Below the pieces are notes generated by a model. The model saw nothing but the letters and a program-made list of their open reading frames with translations. It was not told where the DNA came from and ran no database searches. A program made the position numbers and the translations under genes. Below, piece after piece: positions 8,349-16,586 of a DNA stretch of 39,679 bases; positions within the stretch are counted from its first letter, which is position 1, and every line of letters starts with the position of its first letter. The DNA is taken from positions 1-39,679 of the forward strand of contig CAUJKL010000261.1 in NCBI GenBank assembly GCA_963204995.1. The letters run 5' to 3'. This stretch comes from Planctomycetota bacterium. Lineage in GTDB: Bacteria; Planctomycetota; Planctomycetia; Pirellulales; Pirellulaceae.

Positions 8349-10343
8349 TCACGACGCAGCGACTTCAAGATTCCGAGCGACGGCGTAGCCTTGTCCGCCG
8401 CGTTTGGCCTCGTACATGGCTTCGTCGGCTACTCGCACGAGATCGTCGCTGTTCCGCGCATGCTCAGGGTAGATCGCGATGCCGATGCTGGTGCCGGTTT
8501 CGATCGCATGGCCCTCCAACTCCGTCAGGCTGGCGATGGAGTCGACCAACTTCAAAGCCAATCGCTCGGCGTTGTCACGTTCCGTCGGTGGAGCGACAAC
8601 CACGGCGAATTCGTCACCACCCAAACGTGCCACAAAGTCTCCCTTGCGGATCGAGCCTTCAAATCGCTTGGCGACTTCAATCAGTAGTGCATCGCCAATG
8701 TGATGCCCGAGTGTGTCGTTGACCCGCTTGAACTTATTGAGATCCATCATAAAGACGGCGAACGAACCACCCGTCTCGGCCGCGAAACGCCGAGTCGCAT
8801 CCAAGTGCCGCTCGAAGGCAGCACGATTGGGCAAGCCGGTCATCCCATCGTGCGTGGCCTGTCGTTTGAATTCGTCTTCGCGAGCCTTCATTTCCGTGAT
8901 GTCGCGGATCGAGGCATAGCCGACCCAACCGGTCTCGGATGGCATCGCGTTGAAAGCCAGATCGACATGCCTGCCTTCTCCCATTTTGCCATTAACCGTC
9001 GCCTCCAACCTTCCTGGCTGGTGGCCCGATGCGGAACGCAGTAAGGCGTCTGCCGAGTCCGGCAAGACGGTTGCCAGCGGCTTGCCAAGCACATCATGGG
9101 CTTTGACGCCGAAGAGCTTTTCGGCAGCTTCATTGACGGTCAAGATCCGCCCCTCGGGCGAGAAGGTGATGATCGCGTCGACGCCAGAATGGAACAATTT
9201 TGCAAGTCCATAGTCGACTTTGTCCACCAAGCTCTTGGCGGCCTGTCGGATCGTTTGGAAGTCGGGGTGCGTGGCGATCAGTGTTCCAAAATACGTTAAC
9301 ATGATCGCCGTGATCGGGAGCGCCAAAGGTAGACTCAGATTTGTGCGGCGTTGCAATTCGAGGCTGAAGCCAAACAAGAGAGCAATCGACAGCATGGTTA
9401 AGGCGCCACCTGAACAGATCCCGAATCTTGGCAAGCACATTCCGAGTATGACGACACACGTCAGGGAGCAGGCCAACAACATCCAGAATCGTGCCTGTAT
9501 TGGCTCCAGATCAAGGATCAACGTCTCCGCGGCCAACGCCATAAAAGTTGCCCGCTCGACTTGGCCGTAGCGAGGTACAAGTACCGGCTGTGCGACGCGT
9601 TCCGCAACGAGTCCGACAACAACCGTTTTATCCTTGAATACATCAGCCGCCGCTCCGTTGCGTTCGATATCCGCGAAGCTGATGACCGGAATCGACTCGA
9701 CATCAATGCGGTAGTCGATGTTAACAACTCCAGGTTTGGCATCTCGGCCTGCGGCCAACCAAGCAGCCACCGTAGGTTGGTTCGCTACCTCACCAAACGA
9801 ATCGCGGCCGATGGAGCGCACGCGGCTGTCCTGATCGAAGGGCATATCAGCCGACACGATCGACGTGTGCTTCGCGAACTGCGAGTAGGGGGTGACTTCG
9901 AGCGGACGAACGAGGCCTTGCGCATCTGGTTTGCCCTTGAGTGTGACGATCGGCAGGGCGATTCGATCGGGTCCCAGACGTCGCAAGGCTTCCTCTAAGG
10001 CCGCATCACGGTCGTCTTGCGAAGCGGTTGCGAAGGAACTGTCGAAATAGATCCGTGTCGCGCCGGCTGCGTCGAGTTGGTTCAGTACGCGAGCACATTG
10101 CTCGCGAGGGATGGGCCATCCTCCGTAAGCGGCCAGCGTCTCTTGATCGATCCCAACAATGACGGTTTGGCCGGAGGCGGGTCGCGACGCTAACGATGCT
10201 CGCAGGTCATCGGTTTTCAATTCTGCGACTGAGAGCAGTCCCGCGAACCAGCCAACGACGGTAAACGAAAGGGCGCAAAGACTAGCCAGTACGCCGGGGT
10301 TCCAGCGTCGATTCAGCAAGCACAGAAAGTTTTGAAACGGCAT
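8349..10343 (-). CDS. CHASE2-PAS-GGDEF diguanylate cyclase
   Basis: This 664-aa protein makes the second messenger cyclic di-GMP from two GTP. An N-terminal membrane helix (~18-38) is followed by a periplasmic CHASE2 sensor (~45-275; 'VIVGIDQETLAAYGGWPIPR' is its typical start). Three closely spaced helices span ~285-360. A PAS domain covers ~390-500 (FHSGVDAIITFSPEGRILTV). The GGDEF domain covers ~505-655, with an intact LGGDEF active site (~572-577) and an allosteric RxxD I-site (RKGD) five residues upstream, so feedback inhibition by c-di-GMP is expected. 'DGMTGLPNRAAFERHL' marks the domain start. No EAL or HD-GYP domain follows. It lies 58 bp downstream of a Flp-type pilin on the same strand, suggesting joint control of surface attachment. 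Confidence 0.93.
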   Translation of the reverse strand: MPFQNFLCLLNRRWNPGVLASLCALSFTVVGWFAGLLSVAELKTDDLRASLASRPASGQTVIVGIDQETLAAYGGWPIPREQCARVLNQLDAAGATRIYFDSSFATASQDDRDAALEEALRRLGPDRIALPIVTLKGKPDAQGLVRPLEVTPYSQFAKHTSIVSADMPFDQDSRVRSIGRDSFGEVANQPTVAAWLAAGRDAKPGVVNIDYRIDVESIPVISFADIERNGAAADVFKDKTVVVGLVAERVAQPVLVPRYGQVERATFMALAAETLILDLEPIQARFWMLLACSLTCVVILGMCLPRFGICSGGALTMLSIALLFGFSLELQRRTNLSLPLALPITAIMLTYFGTLIATHPDFQTIRQAAKSLVDKVDYGLAKLFHSGVDAIITFSPEGRILTVNEAAEKLFGVKAHDVLGKPLATVLPDSADALLRSASGHQPGRLEATVNGKMGEGRHVDLAFNAMPSETGWVGYASIRDITEMKAREDEFKRQATHDGMTGLPNRAAFERHLDATRRFAAETGGSFAVFMMDLNKFKRVNDTLGHHIGDALLIEVAKRFEGSIRKGDFVARLGGDEFAVVVAPPTERDNAERLALKLVDSIASLTELEGHAIETGTSIGIAIYPEHARNSDDLVRVADEAMYEAKRGGQGYAVARNLEVAAS

Positions 10344-10608: not shown

Positions 10609-10999
10609 GGGCAGTGACTCAACTGTCGGAAGTGCTGGGCCGATGACGGCGCAGGCATCAAGCTCAACGGCGAGAGGACAATGGCAAGAGATAGCCTTCG
10701 CAGAAAGGTACGCACCGTTTGTGCGCGCCTCAACTGTGGCGATCAATGCCCGGCAATACCCCATTACCCGCCTTCCACAGCAAACCTAGGTCATACGTGT
10801 TGAAAGTCAAATCGTGGGAGGCTGGGGTGGCGGCAGGAAGTCAACCTGGCTTGACGTGCGGTTCTGGCATTTGCGTTGGGACTGTTGACCGCGATAGGGG
10901 CTCGGCTTAGAGTAGTGCTTTGCTCCTAACCAGAAGCTGCCAAGTAAGTTCCGGCATTCCAGTCGAACCTCGAAATGCAATCTCGCCGTCTAATTCGTG
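10609..10999. other. Divergent intergenic region between pilin and hisF
   Basis: This 391-bp stretch separates the minus-strand pilin from plus-strand hisF. It contains a plausible hisF promoter at 10885-10913. Otherwise there is an open but non-conserved extension of the pilin frame up to 10764. No RNA gene, repeat or further coding sequence was recognised. Confidence 0.6.
10885..10913 (+). promoter_or_regulatory. Candidate sigma-70 promoter for hisF
   Basis: TTGACC (10885-10890, 5/6 to the -35 consensus) and TAGAGT (10908-10913, 4/6 to the -10 consensus) are separated by exactly 17 bp. Transcription would start near 10920, leaving an ~80-nt leader before the hisF ATG at 11000. This was found by eye only. 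Confidence 0.45.
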
Positions 11000-11767
11000 A
11001 TGCTCGCTAAACGTGTAATTCCCTGTTTGGACGTCAAACAAGGTCGTGTCGTCAAAGGCACGAACTTTGTGAATCTGCGTGACGCGGGCGATCCGGTGCA
11101 AGTTGCATCACGCTACGAGCAAGAGGGAGCCGACGAACTGGTTTTCCTCGATATCACGGCCAGCCACGAGCAACGCGATATCATGATCGATGTCGTCCGT
11201 CGGACTGCCGAGCAAGTGTTCATGCCGCTGACCGTTGGTGGGGGGATTCGGACGATCGAAGATATTCGTGCGCTCCTCAGAGCCGGATGCGATAAGGTGT
11301 CGATCAATTCGGCCGCCTGTCATCGCCCCGAGTTCGTTCGCGAAGCCGCACTTCGCTTCGGCAGTCAGTGCATCGTGGTCAATATCGACCCGAAACGTGT
11401 CGACTATAATGGTCACGAAGTTTGGGAAGTGCATGTTAACGGCGGCCGCAAACCGACGGGATTGGAAGCTGTGGCGTGGGCTTGCCGCGTGGAAGAGTTG
11501 GGAGCTGGTGAGATCGTCTTGACGAGCATGGATTGCGATGGGACGAAGGATGGTTACGATTTAGAGATCACCGCCGCCGTCAGTGCTGCGGTTTCGATTC
11601 CTGTGGTCGCCAGTGGTGGCGCGGGCCATCCGAAGCATTTGGCGGACGCGATCACGATTGGTAAAGCAGATGCGGCTCTTGCAGCCAGCATCTTCCATTT
11701 CGGAGAATACACGATTCGTGAGACGAAAGAGGCGATGGCCCGACGGGGCATCGCCGTTCGACTTTAG
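11000..11767 (+). CDS. hisF: Imidazole glycerol phosphate synthase cyclase subunit HisF
   Basis: The 255-aa protein is a (beta/alpha)8 barrel that, with the glutaminase HisH, turns PRFAR plus ammonia into imidazole glycerol phosphate and AICAR in histidine synthesis. The start [19 protein letters not shown] is characteristic. Both catalytic aspartates are present (D11 in 'CLDV', D130 in 'NIDPK'). Phosphate-binding loops 'VGGGIRT' and 'ASGGAG' are also present. ATG at 11000 was chosen over GTG at 10997 because the family begins Met-Leu-Ala-Lys-Arg. hisH and other his genes are not in the window, so it is an orphan locus. The next gene starts 48 bp downstream and could share the transcript. Confidence 0.97.
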
Positions 11768-11815: not shown

Positions 11816-13006
11816 ATGGCACACGGCAAAAAGGACGCCCCCGCCGAGGGTCCAGTAGTCGCTCCGAATGAAGAGGATTTTGCGAAGCGGTTTGCACGGA
11901 AACGGGAAGAGATTCCTGTCAACAAACTGTTCCGCGCCCTTGTGAAAATCGAGGGTAGCGACCTTCACCTCAAAGTCGGCAAGCCTCCGCTAATTCGAGA
12001 ACGCGGTGAATTGAAGGCTCTCAATCGCGGCCCCATCGACGCGGAAGAGATGCTCAGTCTGCTGCTGCCGATGATGGATGATCGAAATCGCCGCATCTTT
12101 GATGAAGAAGGCGGTGCGGACTTTTCGTATACCGTCGACGTCGATGGCGTCACGTGGCGTTTCCGCGTGAACATGTTGCAGCAAATGGGAAACATCGGGT
12201 TGGTCGCCCGTCGCGTGAACCAGTTCATTCCCGACTTCAAAGGGTTGTACCTGCCTGAAATCATGGAGTCGCTTTGTCACTTTGACATGGGGATGATCTT
12301 ACTGGCGGGCGTGACGGGTTCCGGCAAATCGACGACGATCGCGTCGATGTTGAACTACACGAATCAGATCTATCGGAAGCACATTCTGACGTTGGAAGAT
12401 CCCATCGAGTTTGTTTACACCGAAGACAAGGCGTTGATCAACCAACGCGAAGTGGGCATTGATGTGAAGGACTTCAGCATCGCCATGAAGCATGCCGTGC
12501 GGCAGGATCCGGACATCATGCTGGTCGGCGAAATGCGTGACGAAGAGACGTTCATGACGGCCATCCATGCCGCCGAGACGGGTCACTTTGTCTATGGAAC
12601 GATCCACGCCGCGACGGCGGCCACGACGATCGGTCGTATTCTCGACTTGTTCCCGGAAGAGATGCACGGGGCTCTGCGGGCGGCCATGGCTAGTAACATG
12701 AAGGCGATCGTCGCGCAAAAGCTCTTGAAGTCCATTAAGCCGGGCGTCTCGCGCGTGCCGCTCAATGAAATCATGTTGTTCAACGCCACGGTGCGAAAGC
12801 TGATTCTGGCGGGCGACGACCATAAGCTGCCGGATGCTATTCGTATCGGGGCAGAAGAAGGCATGCAAGACTTTACGATGGCGTTGAAGAAGCTGATTGA
12901 TGCCGATCTAATCGATCGCCCGACCGCGTTCGCTGTCGCTCCAAATTTGGATGCGTTGAAGATGGCACTCAAAGGCATCGACGTTCGCGCACCTGGCATT
13001 CTGTAA
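11816..13006 (+). CDS. pilT: PilT-family ATPase (type IV pilus retraction/secretion ATPase)
   Basis: The 396-aa protein is a hexameric AAA-like secretion ATPase of the PilT type. The N-terminal PAS-like domain begins near residue 35 ('GSDLHLKVGKPPLIR'). Walker A GVTGSGKST is at 165-173 with Lys171 intact. Asp and His boxes follow in the middle. Walker B is DIMLVGEMRDEET with Glu239, then AAETGHFVYGTIHAA. The C-terminus lacks the classic AIRNLIRE motif in clear form, having 'VRKLILAGDDHKLPDAIRIG' in its place. ATG 11816 was chosen because GAGG lies 10 nt upstream; the frame is open back to 11771 without a better signal. PilT proteins power pilus retraction. The next gene encodes a degenerate relative, so the two may act as a pair. 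Confidence 0.92.
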   Translation: MAHGKKDAPAEGPVVAPNEEDFAKRFARKREEIPVNKLFRALVKIEGSDLHLKVGKPPLIRERGELKALNRGPIDAEEMLSLLLPMMDDRNRRIFDEEGGADFSYTVDVDGVTWRFRVNMLQQMGNIGLVARRVNQFIPDFKGLYLPEIMESLCHFDMGMILLAGVTGSGKSTTIASMLNYTNQIYRKHILTLEDPIEFVYTEDKALINQREVGIDVKDFSIAMKHAVRQDPDIMLVGEMRDEETFMTAIHAAETGHFVYGTIHAATAATTIGRILDLFPEEMHGALRAAMASNMKAIVAQKLLKSIKPGVSRVPLNEIMLFNATVRKLILAGDDHKLPDAIRIGAEEGMQDFTMALKKLIDADLIDRPTAFAVAPNLDALKMALKGIDVRAPGIL

Positions 13007-13050: not shown

Positions 13051-14388
13051 ATGGCCAAAAAGCAGCAGGAAGAACAACCTGTCGAAGTACCACTTCCCCC
13101 GGTCACACTGATACCGATGGGCGCGCCCGACAAGCAGCAAGACCAATCCAACTTGCTAGCCGCGAAGCAGTCGCCGGCATTTCCGATCGCGAATGGATTG
13201 TTGGCGCATTGCTTGAATCGCCGAGGCGAGCGACTGATGCTGGACTATGCCGCCGAAGGCGTCGCGGTTCGATTCGAGATCGACGGTGTGTGGATGAACG
13301 GCGATCCGTTGGACCGACAAAGCGGCGATGCGGCATTGGCCGTCTTTAAAAAGGTCACCAATCTGAATGTGCAGGATCGAAGATCGCGGCAAGACGGAAA
13401 GTTCGGTGTCGAGTTTGCTGGCGGGAAGTACGTCGCGAGCTTCACCAGTCAAGGTGTGAAGACCGGCGAGCGGGTTGTCATTACGTTCAAGCCCAAGAAG
13501 CCCAAGTTCCTCAGGATCGAAGAGCTCGGAATGCGTGACAAGATGCGTGCTAAGCTCAAAGAGCAGATCGATGCGGACGCGGGCTTCATCATCGTCTCGG
13601 CACCGGTCGGGGGCGGTCTGACTACGACCTGGAATTTGACACTCGAGACAGCCGATCGTTTGATGCGTGACTTTGTTTCAGCGGAAGACAAGGACAACAA
13701 AGAAGATGAAGTCATCAACGTCGGCCCAAAATACTATGACCGAGCGGCCGGGCAATCCCCGGCCGATGTGCTGCCGCAGATGATTCTCAAGGAACCCGAT
13801 GTTCTAGTCGTCCCCGAACTGACGAACGCGGAGACGGTCCAGATCCTGTGTGAACAGGTGAACAAATACAATAAGCTGGCGTTCACTAAGGTAAATGCCA
13901 AGGAAGCCGCCGAAGCGTTGCTCAAAGTCTTCGCGTACAAGGGACCGGCAGCCGAACTTGCCAAGTCGGTGACGGCGGTGCTTAACGTCCGGCTCATTCG
14001 CCGCTTGTGCGACCAGTGTAAACAATCATTTCAGCCGCCCCCGCAACTGCTGCAAAAACTCGGCATTCCAGCGGGTCGAGTTCAAGTTCTGTTTCAAGAA
14101 TACAAGCCACCACCGCCGGAAGAACTCATCGATGAAAAAGGCAATCCGATCGTGCTTCCCATCTGCCAAAAGTGTAATGGGATCGGCTATGCGGGTCGAA
14201 TTGGGTTGTTCGAGTTGCTGATCATCGATGATCAGATTCGCGCCGCGCTCACGAATTCGCCGAACCTTGAGACGATCAAACGCGTAGCTAAAGCCGCTGG
14301 TCACCGATCGATCCAGGAGGAGGGTATTCTCCAAGTGGCTCAGGGAGTGACATCGATTAACGAGTTGCAACGCGTGTTGAAGCAGTAG
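13051..14388 (+). CDS. GspE/PilB-like protein with degenerate ATPase site
   Basis: This 445-aa protein aligns by eye over its length with type II secretion/type IV pilus assembly ATPases, but key catalytic residues are missing. The position of the canonical GPTGSGKTT P-loop reads APVGGGLTT (184-192), with Lys replaced by Leu190. The Walker B region is PDVLVVPELTNAET: Glu256 is kept, but the usual Gly, Arg and Asp of 'GEIRD' are Pro255, Thr258 and Asn259. The His box 'TLHTNDA' has become 'FTKVNAKEA'. The tetracysteine zinc site of GspE/PilB is kept (C320, C323, C372, C375), as is the GRIGLFELL motif after it. ATP hydrolysis is therefore unlikely, and a structural or regulatory role beside the adjacent PilT is inferred. 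The gene starts 44 bp after pilT. Confidence 0.88.
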   Translation: MAKKQQEEQPVEVPLPPVTLIPMGAPDKQQDQSNLLAAKQSPAFPIANGLLAHCLNRRGERLMLDYAAEGVAVRFEIDGVWMNGDPLDRQSGDAALAVFKKVTNLNVQDRRSRQDGKFGVEFAGGKYVASFTSQGVKTGERVVITFKPKKPKFLRIEELGMRDKMRAKLKEQIDADAGFIIVSAPVGGGLTTTWNLTLETADRLMRDFVSAEDKDNKEDEVINVGPKYYDRAAGQSPADVLPQMILKEPDVLVVPELTNAETVQILCEQVNKYNKLAFTKVNAKEAAEALLKVFAYKGPAAELAKSVTAVLNVRLIRRLCDQCKQSFQPPPQLLQKLGIPAGRVQVLFQEYKPPPPEELIDEKGNPIVLPICQKCNGIGYAGRIGLFELLIIDDQIRAALTNSPNLETIKRVAKAAGHRSIQEEGILQVAQGVTSINELQRVLKQ

Positions 14389-14408
14389 TTTCGGAGGCAG
14401 TGTCGCTA

Positions 14409-15194
14409 ATGTCGAAATCAAGTCTCGTGGAAACGCATTTCCGAAGTGGAGAAGAAGCACCCGAGTTAGAGGATTATCGCCCGATAAGTCCGTTAGTCGT
14501 GGCGGCTTGCGTGGCGGCGGTGTTGTCGTTGCTGGCAGTTGCCCATCCACTTTTGTGGGTCTTGCCAGTTGTCGCCGTCGTTCTTTCGATCTCCGCGATC
14601 GTCCGAGTTTCTGCCGAGCACAGTCGTTCCGGCGGTCGCGGTGTGGCGGTAGCCGCTTTGTGTTTCGCCGCGCTGATTGGATCCTATGCTCCAGCAAGAT
14701 CGATCTCCCGCGATCGGGCCTTGTTTTCGCAGGCCCGCGCGAAAGCGGAAGAATGGATTTCACTCATCCAACAGGGACGCATCCAAGAGGCCCATCAATT
14801 ATCCCTGAGTCCGAGCGATCGGTTTCAAGGCCCCGGGTCGCTCGATGATCATTACACGGCAGTTCCGCCAGAACGAACGATGTCCGACGGCGAAGCAGAC
14901 GACCTGGCTGCGAGCGCAGATTTGTCACCGCCACCGGCGGCGGCAATTGAGACATTCATGGCGAAGCCGGCAATCGCGAAACTATTGGAGTTTGGTACAG
15001 ACGCTAAGATCGAACATCTTCAAGATGATACCATTGTGCTCGTCTACGGAGATCTGACATTTACGCAGCATTTTCGGGCGAGTCGCGTTCGTGATGGCCA
15101 AACCGAGAGCTTCGACTTTTGGGTCCGCTCGACGCGACGTGAACAGTCGCGATCCGCCGATTGGAACGTTGGGGAAATTGATCTGGTGAAATGA
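14409..15194 (+). CDS. Two-TM protein with DUF4190-like N-terminus, unknown function
   Basis: The 261-aa product has an acidic N-terminus, then two close membrane segments (~28-65: PLVVAACVAAVLSLLAVAHP and LLWVLPVVAVVLSISAIV) and a third hydrophobic stretch near 80-95. The arrangement resembles DUF4190-type small membrane domains common in planctomycetes. The C-terminal ~150 residues look extracytoplasmic, and no catalytic motif is seen. ATG 14409 was chosen although GTG at 14400 is in frame: GGAGG at 14393-14397 lies 11 nt from the ATG but only 2 nt from the GTG. It follows the degenerate GspE-like gene by 20 bp, so it is very likely in the same operon. Confidence 0.75.
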   Translation: MSKSSLVETHFRSGEEAPELEDYRPISPLVVAACVAAVLSLLAVAHPLLWVLPVVAVVLSISAIVRVSAEHSRSGGRGVAVAALCFAALIGSYAPARSISRDRALFSQARAKAEEWISLIQQGRIQEAHQLSLSPSDRFQGPGSLDDHYTAVPPERTMSDGEADDLAASADLSPPPAAAIETFMAKPAIAKLLEFGTDAKIEHLQDDTIVLVYGDLTFTQHFRASRVRDGQTESFDFWVRSTRREQSRSADWNVGEIDLVK

Positions 15195-15227
15195 CCACCG
15201 GGCGTAACGTGTGTGCGGAGGCTCGTC

Positions 15228-16586
15228 GTGAAGACGGAGGACTTGGAGTCTGGCTTGCGCACTGTCGTGCAAATGGCGGCGTATTTTCGCGATCTGAAGT
15301 CACGAGCTGCATCGATCGCCGAGCGGATCAAACCGCAAGAACGAGGCTACTTCACCACCCTCGAAGACGACGACGCCCGTCCTCTGCTCGTCTCGTATTG
15401 GCACGCGAGAAATGCCCTCTTCGACCTGATCACTTCGTTTCAAGACGACGAGGAATTGGATGACAAGTCGCGTCGCGAGGCATTCCTTATCGCCTTTGCT
15501 GCGGCCTTGTTGCTCGTTGATGCGGCGAGGTTTCTGCGCGAAGTCGCAGATCAACGACCGATTGTGCGGAGTAAATTCAATGAGCCTGCTCCGCAGTACG
15601 GTGTGCCCGGTGGCGTTTACGACGCCGTCCAAAAGTCCTTGGTGAGCGCTCGTCACGGTTGGCACCTGTACCATGCGATTGAGTACTTCAATGAGCATGA
15701 AGCGGAGTTGCGAGAACTCGGACGAGATTCCGCTTACGAACCGCTGCTGGCATGTATCGACGAACTGAGATTTCGCCTGAATGTGTCGATCACACAGTTT
15801 GCCGAGGCCAAGCTACGCACGCGAGCCGATCAGCTACTGCGGCACGTAGGCCGTACGCTCATCGGTCGCGCGCTCTACGGCATCCAGAAACTCGCAGGCA
15901 GTTTGGCCGCCGACAAATACCTGCGTTTCGGACACCGGCCTGGTTTGCCAAGCGATGTCGCCGAGCAGATCCGCAAGCTTCTACTTCCCGGCGATGTGTT
16001 GGTGGTTCGCAAAGAATATGCACTCACGAACTATTTCCTTCCCGGCTATTGGCCTCACGCTGCGGTCTACCTCGGCGATACGGACGAGCTTTTAGGTCTG
16101 GGCATCCACGACACAGAACATGTCAAGCCTCGTTGGGCGCGCCTGCTCGATAACAAATCGCCGGCAGAGGGACATGTGCTCGAATCGATGCGAGACGGCG
16201 TTAACTTACGGACGCTGAAATCGCCGTTCGCTTCCGACTCTGTCGTTGTGCTACGGCCTTCCCTCAACCGCCAGGACGTCGGCAAGGCCCTCGCTCGCGG
16301 CTTTGCACACGAAGGCAAAGCGTATGATTTCGACTTTGATTTCCGCCGCGCTGACCGTTTGGTCTGCACCGAGGTTGTCTATCGGTCCTTCGACGGCGTC
16401 GGCTCGATCAACATCCCGCTTGTCCAACGCGCCGGACGCCCAACGCTCTCGGGAAGCGATCTAATCCAGATGGGCATCCGCGACGCGAACTTCACTCCCG
16501 TTGCGGTCTTCGCCCCGCTGCTTACACCGGGAGTGGTTGTAGGCTCGCAAGCCCGTAGCGTTCTCATCCAAGGCGAAAGCCGTTGA
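15228..16586 (+). CDS. YiiX/YebB-like NlpC/P60-superfamily cysteine hydrolase
   Basis: The ~452-aa protein has a helical N-terminal two-thirds of unknown role and a C-terminal YiiX-like permuted NlpC/P60 fold. LLPGDVLVVR opens the domain. 'YWPHAAVYLGD' carries the probable catalytic histidine (H277), and 'RLVCTEVVYRSF' the probable nucleophile cysteine (C380). In this permuted subfamily the His precedes the Cys, as seen here. Relatives are thought to cleave amide or thioester bonds in peptidoglycan or lipid-like substrates; the substrate here is unknown. GTG 15228 was chosen because GGAGG ends 6 nt upstream, in preference to GTG 15213. It is 33 bp after the two-TM gene and probably cotranscribed with it. 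Confidence 0.83.
   Translation: MKTEDLESGLRTVVQMAAYFRDLKSRAASIAERIKPQERGYFTTLEDDDARPLLVSYWHARNALFDLITSFQDDEELDDKSRREAFLIAFAAALLLVDAARFLREVADQRPIVRSKFNEPAPQYGVPGGVYDAVQKSLVSARHGWHLYHAIEYFNEHEAELRELGRDSAYEPLLACIDELRFRLNVSITQFAEAKLRTRADQLLRHVGRTLIGRALYGIQKLAGSLAADKYLRFGHRPGLPSDVAEQIRKLLLPGDVLVVRKEYALTNYFLPGYWPHAAVYLGDTDELLGLGIHDTEHVKPRWARLLDNKSPAEGHVLESMRDGVNLRTLKSPFASDSVVVLRPSLNRQDVGKALARGFAHEGKAYDFDFDFRRADRLVCTEVVYRSFDGVGSINIPLVQRAGRPTLSGSDLIQMGIRDANFTPVAVFAPLLTPGVVVGSQARSVLIQGESR

Follow-up and report, generated by a model that had tools for sequence, protein, structure and literature searches.

We find that the protein encoded at positions 13051-14388 of a 39,679-nucleotide stretch of DNA from a member of the Pirellulaceae (Planctomycetota; GenBank assembly GCA_963204995.1, contig CAUJKL010000261.1, forward strand; the whole stretch is called the window) is, as judged from sequence comparison, an old pseudo-ATPase of the PilB/GspE family that is held under strong purifying selection and is predicted to have no activity. 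We conclude this because the Walker A lysine is missing in 97 of 99 orthologues, and because the ratio of non-synonymous to synonymous substitution rates (dN/dS) is about 0.05, like those of the neighbouring PilT and HisF. With a probability of roughly 0.5, we propose that, in a pilus- or secretion-like machine, the adjacent PilT motor has in this protein a partner for docking or regulation that does not itself hydrolyse ATP.

13051-14388, forward strand: pseudo-ATPase of the PilB/GspE family, 445 residues, soluble short form (open reading frame, T2SSE match, residue comparison)

The reading frame is open from ATG to TAG, without internal stops, and its product matches the Pfam profile T2SSE (PF00437) at E = 1e-44 and 153 bits (cut-off 24.9) over residues 39-441, which span profile positions 4-370 of 370 and hence the full length of the family. 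The closest PDB matches are T. thermophilus PilF, V. cholerae EpsE and Geobacter PilB, with E-values to 1e-37. The protein falls below the NCBIfam equivalog cut-offs for GspE (170 vs 630 bits) and PilB (154 vs 676 bits), and reaches 21.9 bits on the PilT/PilU model TIGR01420 (cut-off 319); AlphaFold2, run on alignments of only 3 and 5 rows, returned mean predicted local distance difference test scores of 33 and 37. On sequence grounds, then, this is a PilB/GspE protein by fold, but one that fails the ATPase features. A first-pass annotation of the same DNA had described the overall length as intact, which is true of the core only, as the N1 (N1D/MshEN) domain is absent and canonical PilB is longer. 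Its term AAA+ also needs correcting, since the PilT/GspE ATPases are ASCE, PilT-like proteins distinct from AAA+ (PMC5424180).

The fate of the active site was followed residue by residue with positions numbered as in G. metallireducens PilB (5TSG) and residue roles taken from PMC5424180, in two samples of degenerate orthologues from the window's order (65 + 34 = 99) and in a reference set of 26 active relatives, which include copies away from pilT. The elements concerned, all on the forward strand, are as follows.

13438-13440, forward strand: Ser130 at the PilB arginine-finger position R271 (residue comparison)
13483-13485, forward strand: Thr145 at the PilB arginine-finger position R286 (residue comparison)
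13600-13626, forward strand: degenerate Walker A, APVGGGLTT, residues 184-192, with Leu190 for lysine (residue comparison)
13798-13827, forward strand: degenerate Walker B region, DVLVVPELTN, residues 250-259 (residue comparison)
13873-13896, forward strand: degenerate HIS box, residues 275-282 (H413 to K275, H420 to N282)
14008-14019, forward strand: first zinc CxxC, C320 and C323 (cysteine in 62/65 and 65/65 orthologues)
14164-14175, forward strand: second zinc CxxC, C372 and C375 (cysteine in 65/65 and 65/65 orthologues)

The substitutions that the first-pass annotation had read from the letters are recovered in this mapping: the Walker A lysine K331 corresponds to Leu190, the Gly, Arg and Asp of GEIRD (G394, R397, D398) to P255, T258 and N259, and both HIS-box histidines are gone, while the four zinc cysteines are indeed in place. 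To these we add the replacement of both trans arginine fingers. The catalytic glutamate is retained in the window protein (E395 to E256), with Glu in 27 and Asp in 27 of 65 orthologues, as is the inter-chain arginine (R455 to R317), which is Arg in 65/65. The lysine survives in 2/65 and 0/34 orthologues; its substitute is nearly always leucine and is hydrophobic in 62/65 (L48 F6 M5 Y3). T327 has become proline in 53/65 and H420 arginine in 30/65, and the fingers R271 and R286 are still arginine in 12/65 and 9/65, compared with 26/26 in the active relatives, in which the positions degraded in the dead copies are intact in 25-26 of 26. The lost residues are those that hold and sense the nucleotide on both sides of the subunit interface, and the retained parts are the zinc module, with each cysteine kept in 62-65 of 65, the C-terminal module and the inter-chain arginine. 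Five residues (W81, Q134, T138, R141 and E288) are newly fixed in the dead clade and not in the active relatives, which suggests a new constraint. Separately, we observe a Walker A lysine (GDGKST/GDGKTT) in an otherwise degenerate site at L081:7773-9104 and L082:6759-8120; these are short second copies in tandem pairs that lack the catalytic glutamate and HIS box, and their lysine could be a retention or a regain.

A match to the window protein is found in 60 of 60 near relatives and, in a sample taken across the order, in 142 of 146 genomes (E<=1e-45), several of the hits in family f8 being active paralogues (families are given here as f-numbers; order and class names such as Pirellulales and Planctomycetales are our reading of the groups). 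Pairwise comparison with two sister species gives a dN/dS of 0.045-0.057 for the pseudo-ATPase, 0.034-0.049 for PilT and 0.043-0.045 for HisF, with sequence identities of 85-94% for all three. A recent loss in a single strain is ruled out by the missing lysine in 97/99 orthologues; the conserved loss envisaged in the first-pass annotation is thereby borne out within the order, where the zinc cysteines stay and PilT keeps all its motifs.

Most loci of the order have hisF and pilT ahead of the gene, an arrangement that we refer to as the hisF-pilT-X slot.

10997-11767, forward strand: hisF (His_biosynth), conserved upstream neighbour (Pfam, neighbourhood comparison)
11816-13006, forward strand: PilT-family ATPase with intact motifs GVTGSGKSTT, LEDPIE, VGEMRD and GTIHA (motif reading, profile search)

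The PilT neighbour scores 372.5 bits on TIGR01420 (cut-off 319), and all of its catalytic motifs are kept in every orthologous copy that covers them. The other PilT genes of the genome fall outside its subfamily (699 vs 356-365 bits; 40% identity), which is found in 24/24 genomes tested. The same slot recurs, with an active PilB-like ATPase as X, both in further families of the class and among distant members of the phylum; the slot is, by this gene-order comparison, old in the phylum, and the linkage to an intact PilT pointed out in the first-pass annotation thus extends well beyond the window.

At about two thirds of the orthologous loci the product is longer, at about 570-600 residues, and its N-terminus carries a signal-like segment, a conserved RGPGxYxSW motif and about three membrane helices (from hydropathy only) ahead of the degenerate core. 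Downstream of these anchored forms lies a gene for a four-helix protein of the CvpA/Colicin_V family (PF02674; the best matches reach E about 1e-7). Counting both samples, 69 of 71 anchored loci (six of the 71 being active f8 copies) have the CvpA-like gene, vs 0 of 29 loci with the short form only; the loci are related and are not 100 independent events. The coupling of anchor and CvpA is new here. Long and short forms stand in tandem in five genomes. The window locus has a short form and no CvpA-like neighbour, and its lineage is without both anchor and CvpA; the window protein is thus most simply read as a derived, soluble version.

X is degenerate in the distant family f94 (L177, L178), and partly so in three scattered genomes in which it occupies the hisF-pilT slot with the Walker lysine kept and the Walker B and HIS box altered (L191, L197, L200); the latter are apparent intermediates of ATPase loss. 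In family f21 (Planctomycetales by our grouping) the anchored copy is active, and a short copy at another place is degenerate. In family f8, which belongs to the window's own order, the active anchored copies do not adjoin pilT, and the pilT slot itself, read in two f8 genomes, contains a degenerate copy in both (L218, L224). FastTree and an interim IQ-TREE tree without bootstraps group the degenerate copies, including those of f94 and L191, L197 and L200, which looks like long-branch attraction; as degenerate copies attract each other, the trees were not used to count losses. Assuming vertical descent, the distribution would mean that the slot ATPase was lost more than once.

These observations can be assembled into the following proposal. 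A PilB/GspE-type motor tied to the inner membrane would originally have been encoded beside a dedicated PilT and, in its ancestral form, held at the membrane together with CvpA. In the window's order the slot copy has lost the Walker A lysine, the HIS box and the trans arginine fingers, with the fold, zinc module and inter-chain arginine remaining under strong purifying selection, and would no longer burn ATP. It may instead act as a docking or regulatory element for PilT at a PilC/GspF-like membrane platform, where the pseudo-PilB would hold or hand over the pilus base and PilT do the work; a regulatory role is plausible. The soluble version in the window lineage would act through its N2D and zinc/C-terminal surfaces alone. 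Because active PilB/GspE proteins are encoded elsewhere in the genome, the cell does not depend on the window copy for ATP hydrolysis. More tentatively, a membrane-anchored PilB-type motor may have become a subunit that does not hydrolyse ATP, perhaps in several independent events within Planctomycetota, and the ancestral form of this subunit would have had a CvpA-like membrane partner; the result would be a type IV filament-like machine run by PilT on a pseudo-PilB platform, an organisation not known to have been described.

Several observations weigh against a partnership with PilT. The short degenerate paralogue of f21 lies apart from pilT, and the active anchored f21 copy has a CvpA neighbour, so from f21 the tie of the dead copy to PilT is not universal; a dead copy in genome G008 (L102) is also away from pilT. 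A PilC/GspF gene is absent from the window's hisF-pilT cluster, the many PilC genes of this genome lying elsewhere along with the several active PilB/GspE genes. In genome G000 we also observe two stretches, C638:2564-6090 (L212) and C350:2190-5724 (L213), that each contain three tandem PilC/GspF-like (T2SSF) genes and no ATPase gene; a protein with a weak PilX_N match lies beside the L212 array. These arrays are a possible platform for orphan motors.

Among the other explanations, one makes the CvpA-like membrane protein the main partner of the dead protein, which would be a membrane scaffold or signalling element and whose position beside pilT would be a relic of the ancestral operon; this seems rather unlikely to us. 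The near-perfect co-occurrence of anchor and CvpA speaks for it, as do f8 members that carry anchored PilB and CvpA with pilT not adjoining, but short forms like that of the window persist under strong selection without CvpA, and still beside pilT.

The first-pass annotation had proposed a mixed hexamer of active PilT and inactive PilB-like subunits, in which the inactive ones would tune the active ones. Adjacency to an intact PilT and the fully conserved inter-chain arginine are compatible with such a ring, which we nevertheless judge improbable: the arginines R271 and R286 that a subunit lends to its neighbour are lost together with the HIS box, so that a dead subunit cannot complete the PilT site, and the sites on either side of a pseudo subunit in the ring would both be silent. 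PilT and PilB are, moreover, separate subfamilies (14-15% identity here), and the f21 genomes have a dead paralogue with no pilT nearby. What the missing arginine fingers argue against is a mixed ring acting as a catalytic pair; a PilT assembly in contact with a separate pseudo-PilB assembly is compatible with their loss.

That the dead protein enters rings of the canonical active PilB/GspE proteins encoded elsewhere, and there poisons them or limits their assembly, is distinctly improbable; family membership, the several active PilB/GspE proteins of its own genome and the kept zinc and C-terminal surfaces would permit it, but there is no linkage to active PilB/GspE clusters and identity to these proteins is just 22-26%. 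We regard it as very unlikely that an altered site still binds or cleaves nucleotide: the P-loop Gly189 is kept in 64/65 orthologues and an Asp-box glutamate in 47/65 (where the alignment is uncertain owing to an insertion), against which stand the hydrophobic residue for lysine in 62/65, the T327 to proline change in 53/65 and the absence of arginine fingers and HIS box. A pseudogene or sequencing artefact, for which the degenerate motifs and nothing further would speak, is rejected by the dN/dS of about 0.05, by reading frames open in all relatives and by presence in nearly all genomes of the order, as the first-pass annotation had already supposed from the intact frame.

Set beside known systems, the window protein has, as judged from sequence, the N2D, RecA-like, zinc and C-terminal fold of PilB/GspE (EpsE, PilF), with a full-length T2SSE match, four zinc cysteines and the inter-chain arginine; it differs in the loss of the Walker A lysine, GEIRD, HIS box and arginine fingers and of N1D/MshEN, in whose place most orthologues have a signal-like segment and three transmembrane helices. 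The active anchored PilB-like ATPases of other planctomycete families (L186-L190, L202) share the hisF-pilT-X-cvpA slot, the anchored N-terminus and mostly the same CvpA-like neighbour but, unlike the copies of the window's order, retain GPTGSGK[ST]TT, GEIRD, the H box and both arginine fingers. PilU/PilT pairs likewise place two related ATPase-fold proteins in one retraction system, whereas the partner in the window's order is PilB-type and degenerate. TfpB/PilB of Acinetobacter baylyi is another case of a second, divergent PilB-like protein in one system, TfpB being treated as a second extension motor (PMC8213720, PMC11656802).

The open-licence papers that we searched contain no report of a pseudo-ATPase of the PilT/GspE group. 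Published data on gene essentiality in Planctopirus limnophila (PMC10632474) and on expression in Rhodopirellula baltica (PMC2754498) mention pil or secretion genes, none of which we could tie to the window locus. An order-wide, selected pseudo-PilB beside an intact PilT offers a natural test of what PilB-type proteins do besides burning ATP, and cultured planctomycetes are a place to test that role. To our knowledge, the members of the PilT/GspE group that drive pili and secretion have been treated as obligate ATPases. The CvpA family is poorly understood, and its coupling to the anchor provides a lead.

The remaining features of the neighbourhood lie downstream and upstream of these genes.

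14400-15194, forward strand: membrane protein with weak DUF4190-like similarity, alternative ATG at 14409 (Pfam, neighbourhood comparison)
15213-16586, forward strand: permuted papain-like amidase (Peptidase_C92, YiiX-like; Pfam), a neighbour in a minority of loci

The DUF4190-like protein recurs as a neighbour although it evolves fast, with 53-54% identity between sister species; the amidase is probably not part of the system. Upstream, on the reverse strand at 8349-10343, we read from the sequence a predicted CHASE2-like/PAS/GGDEF protein.
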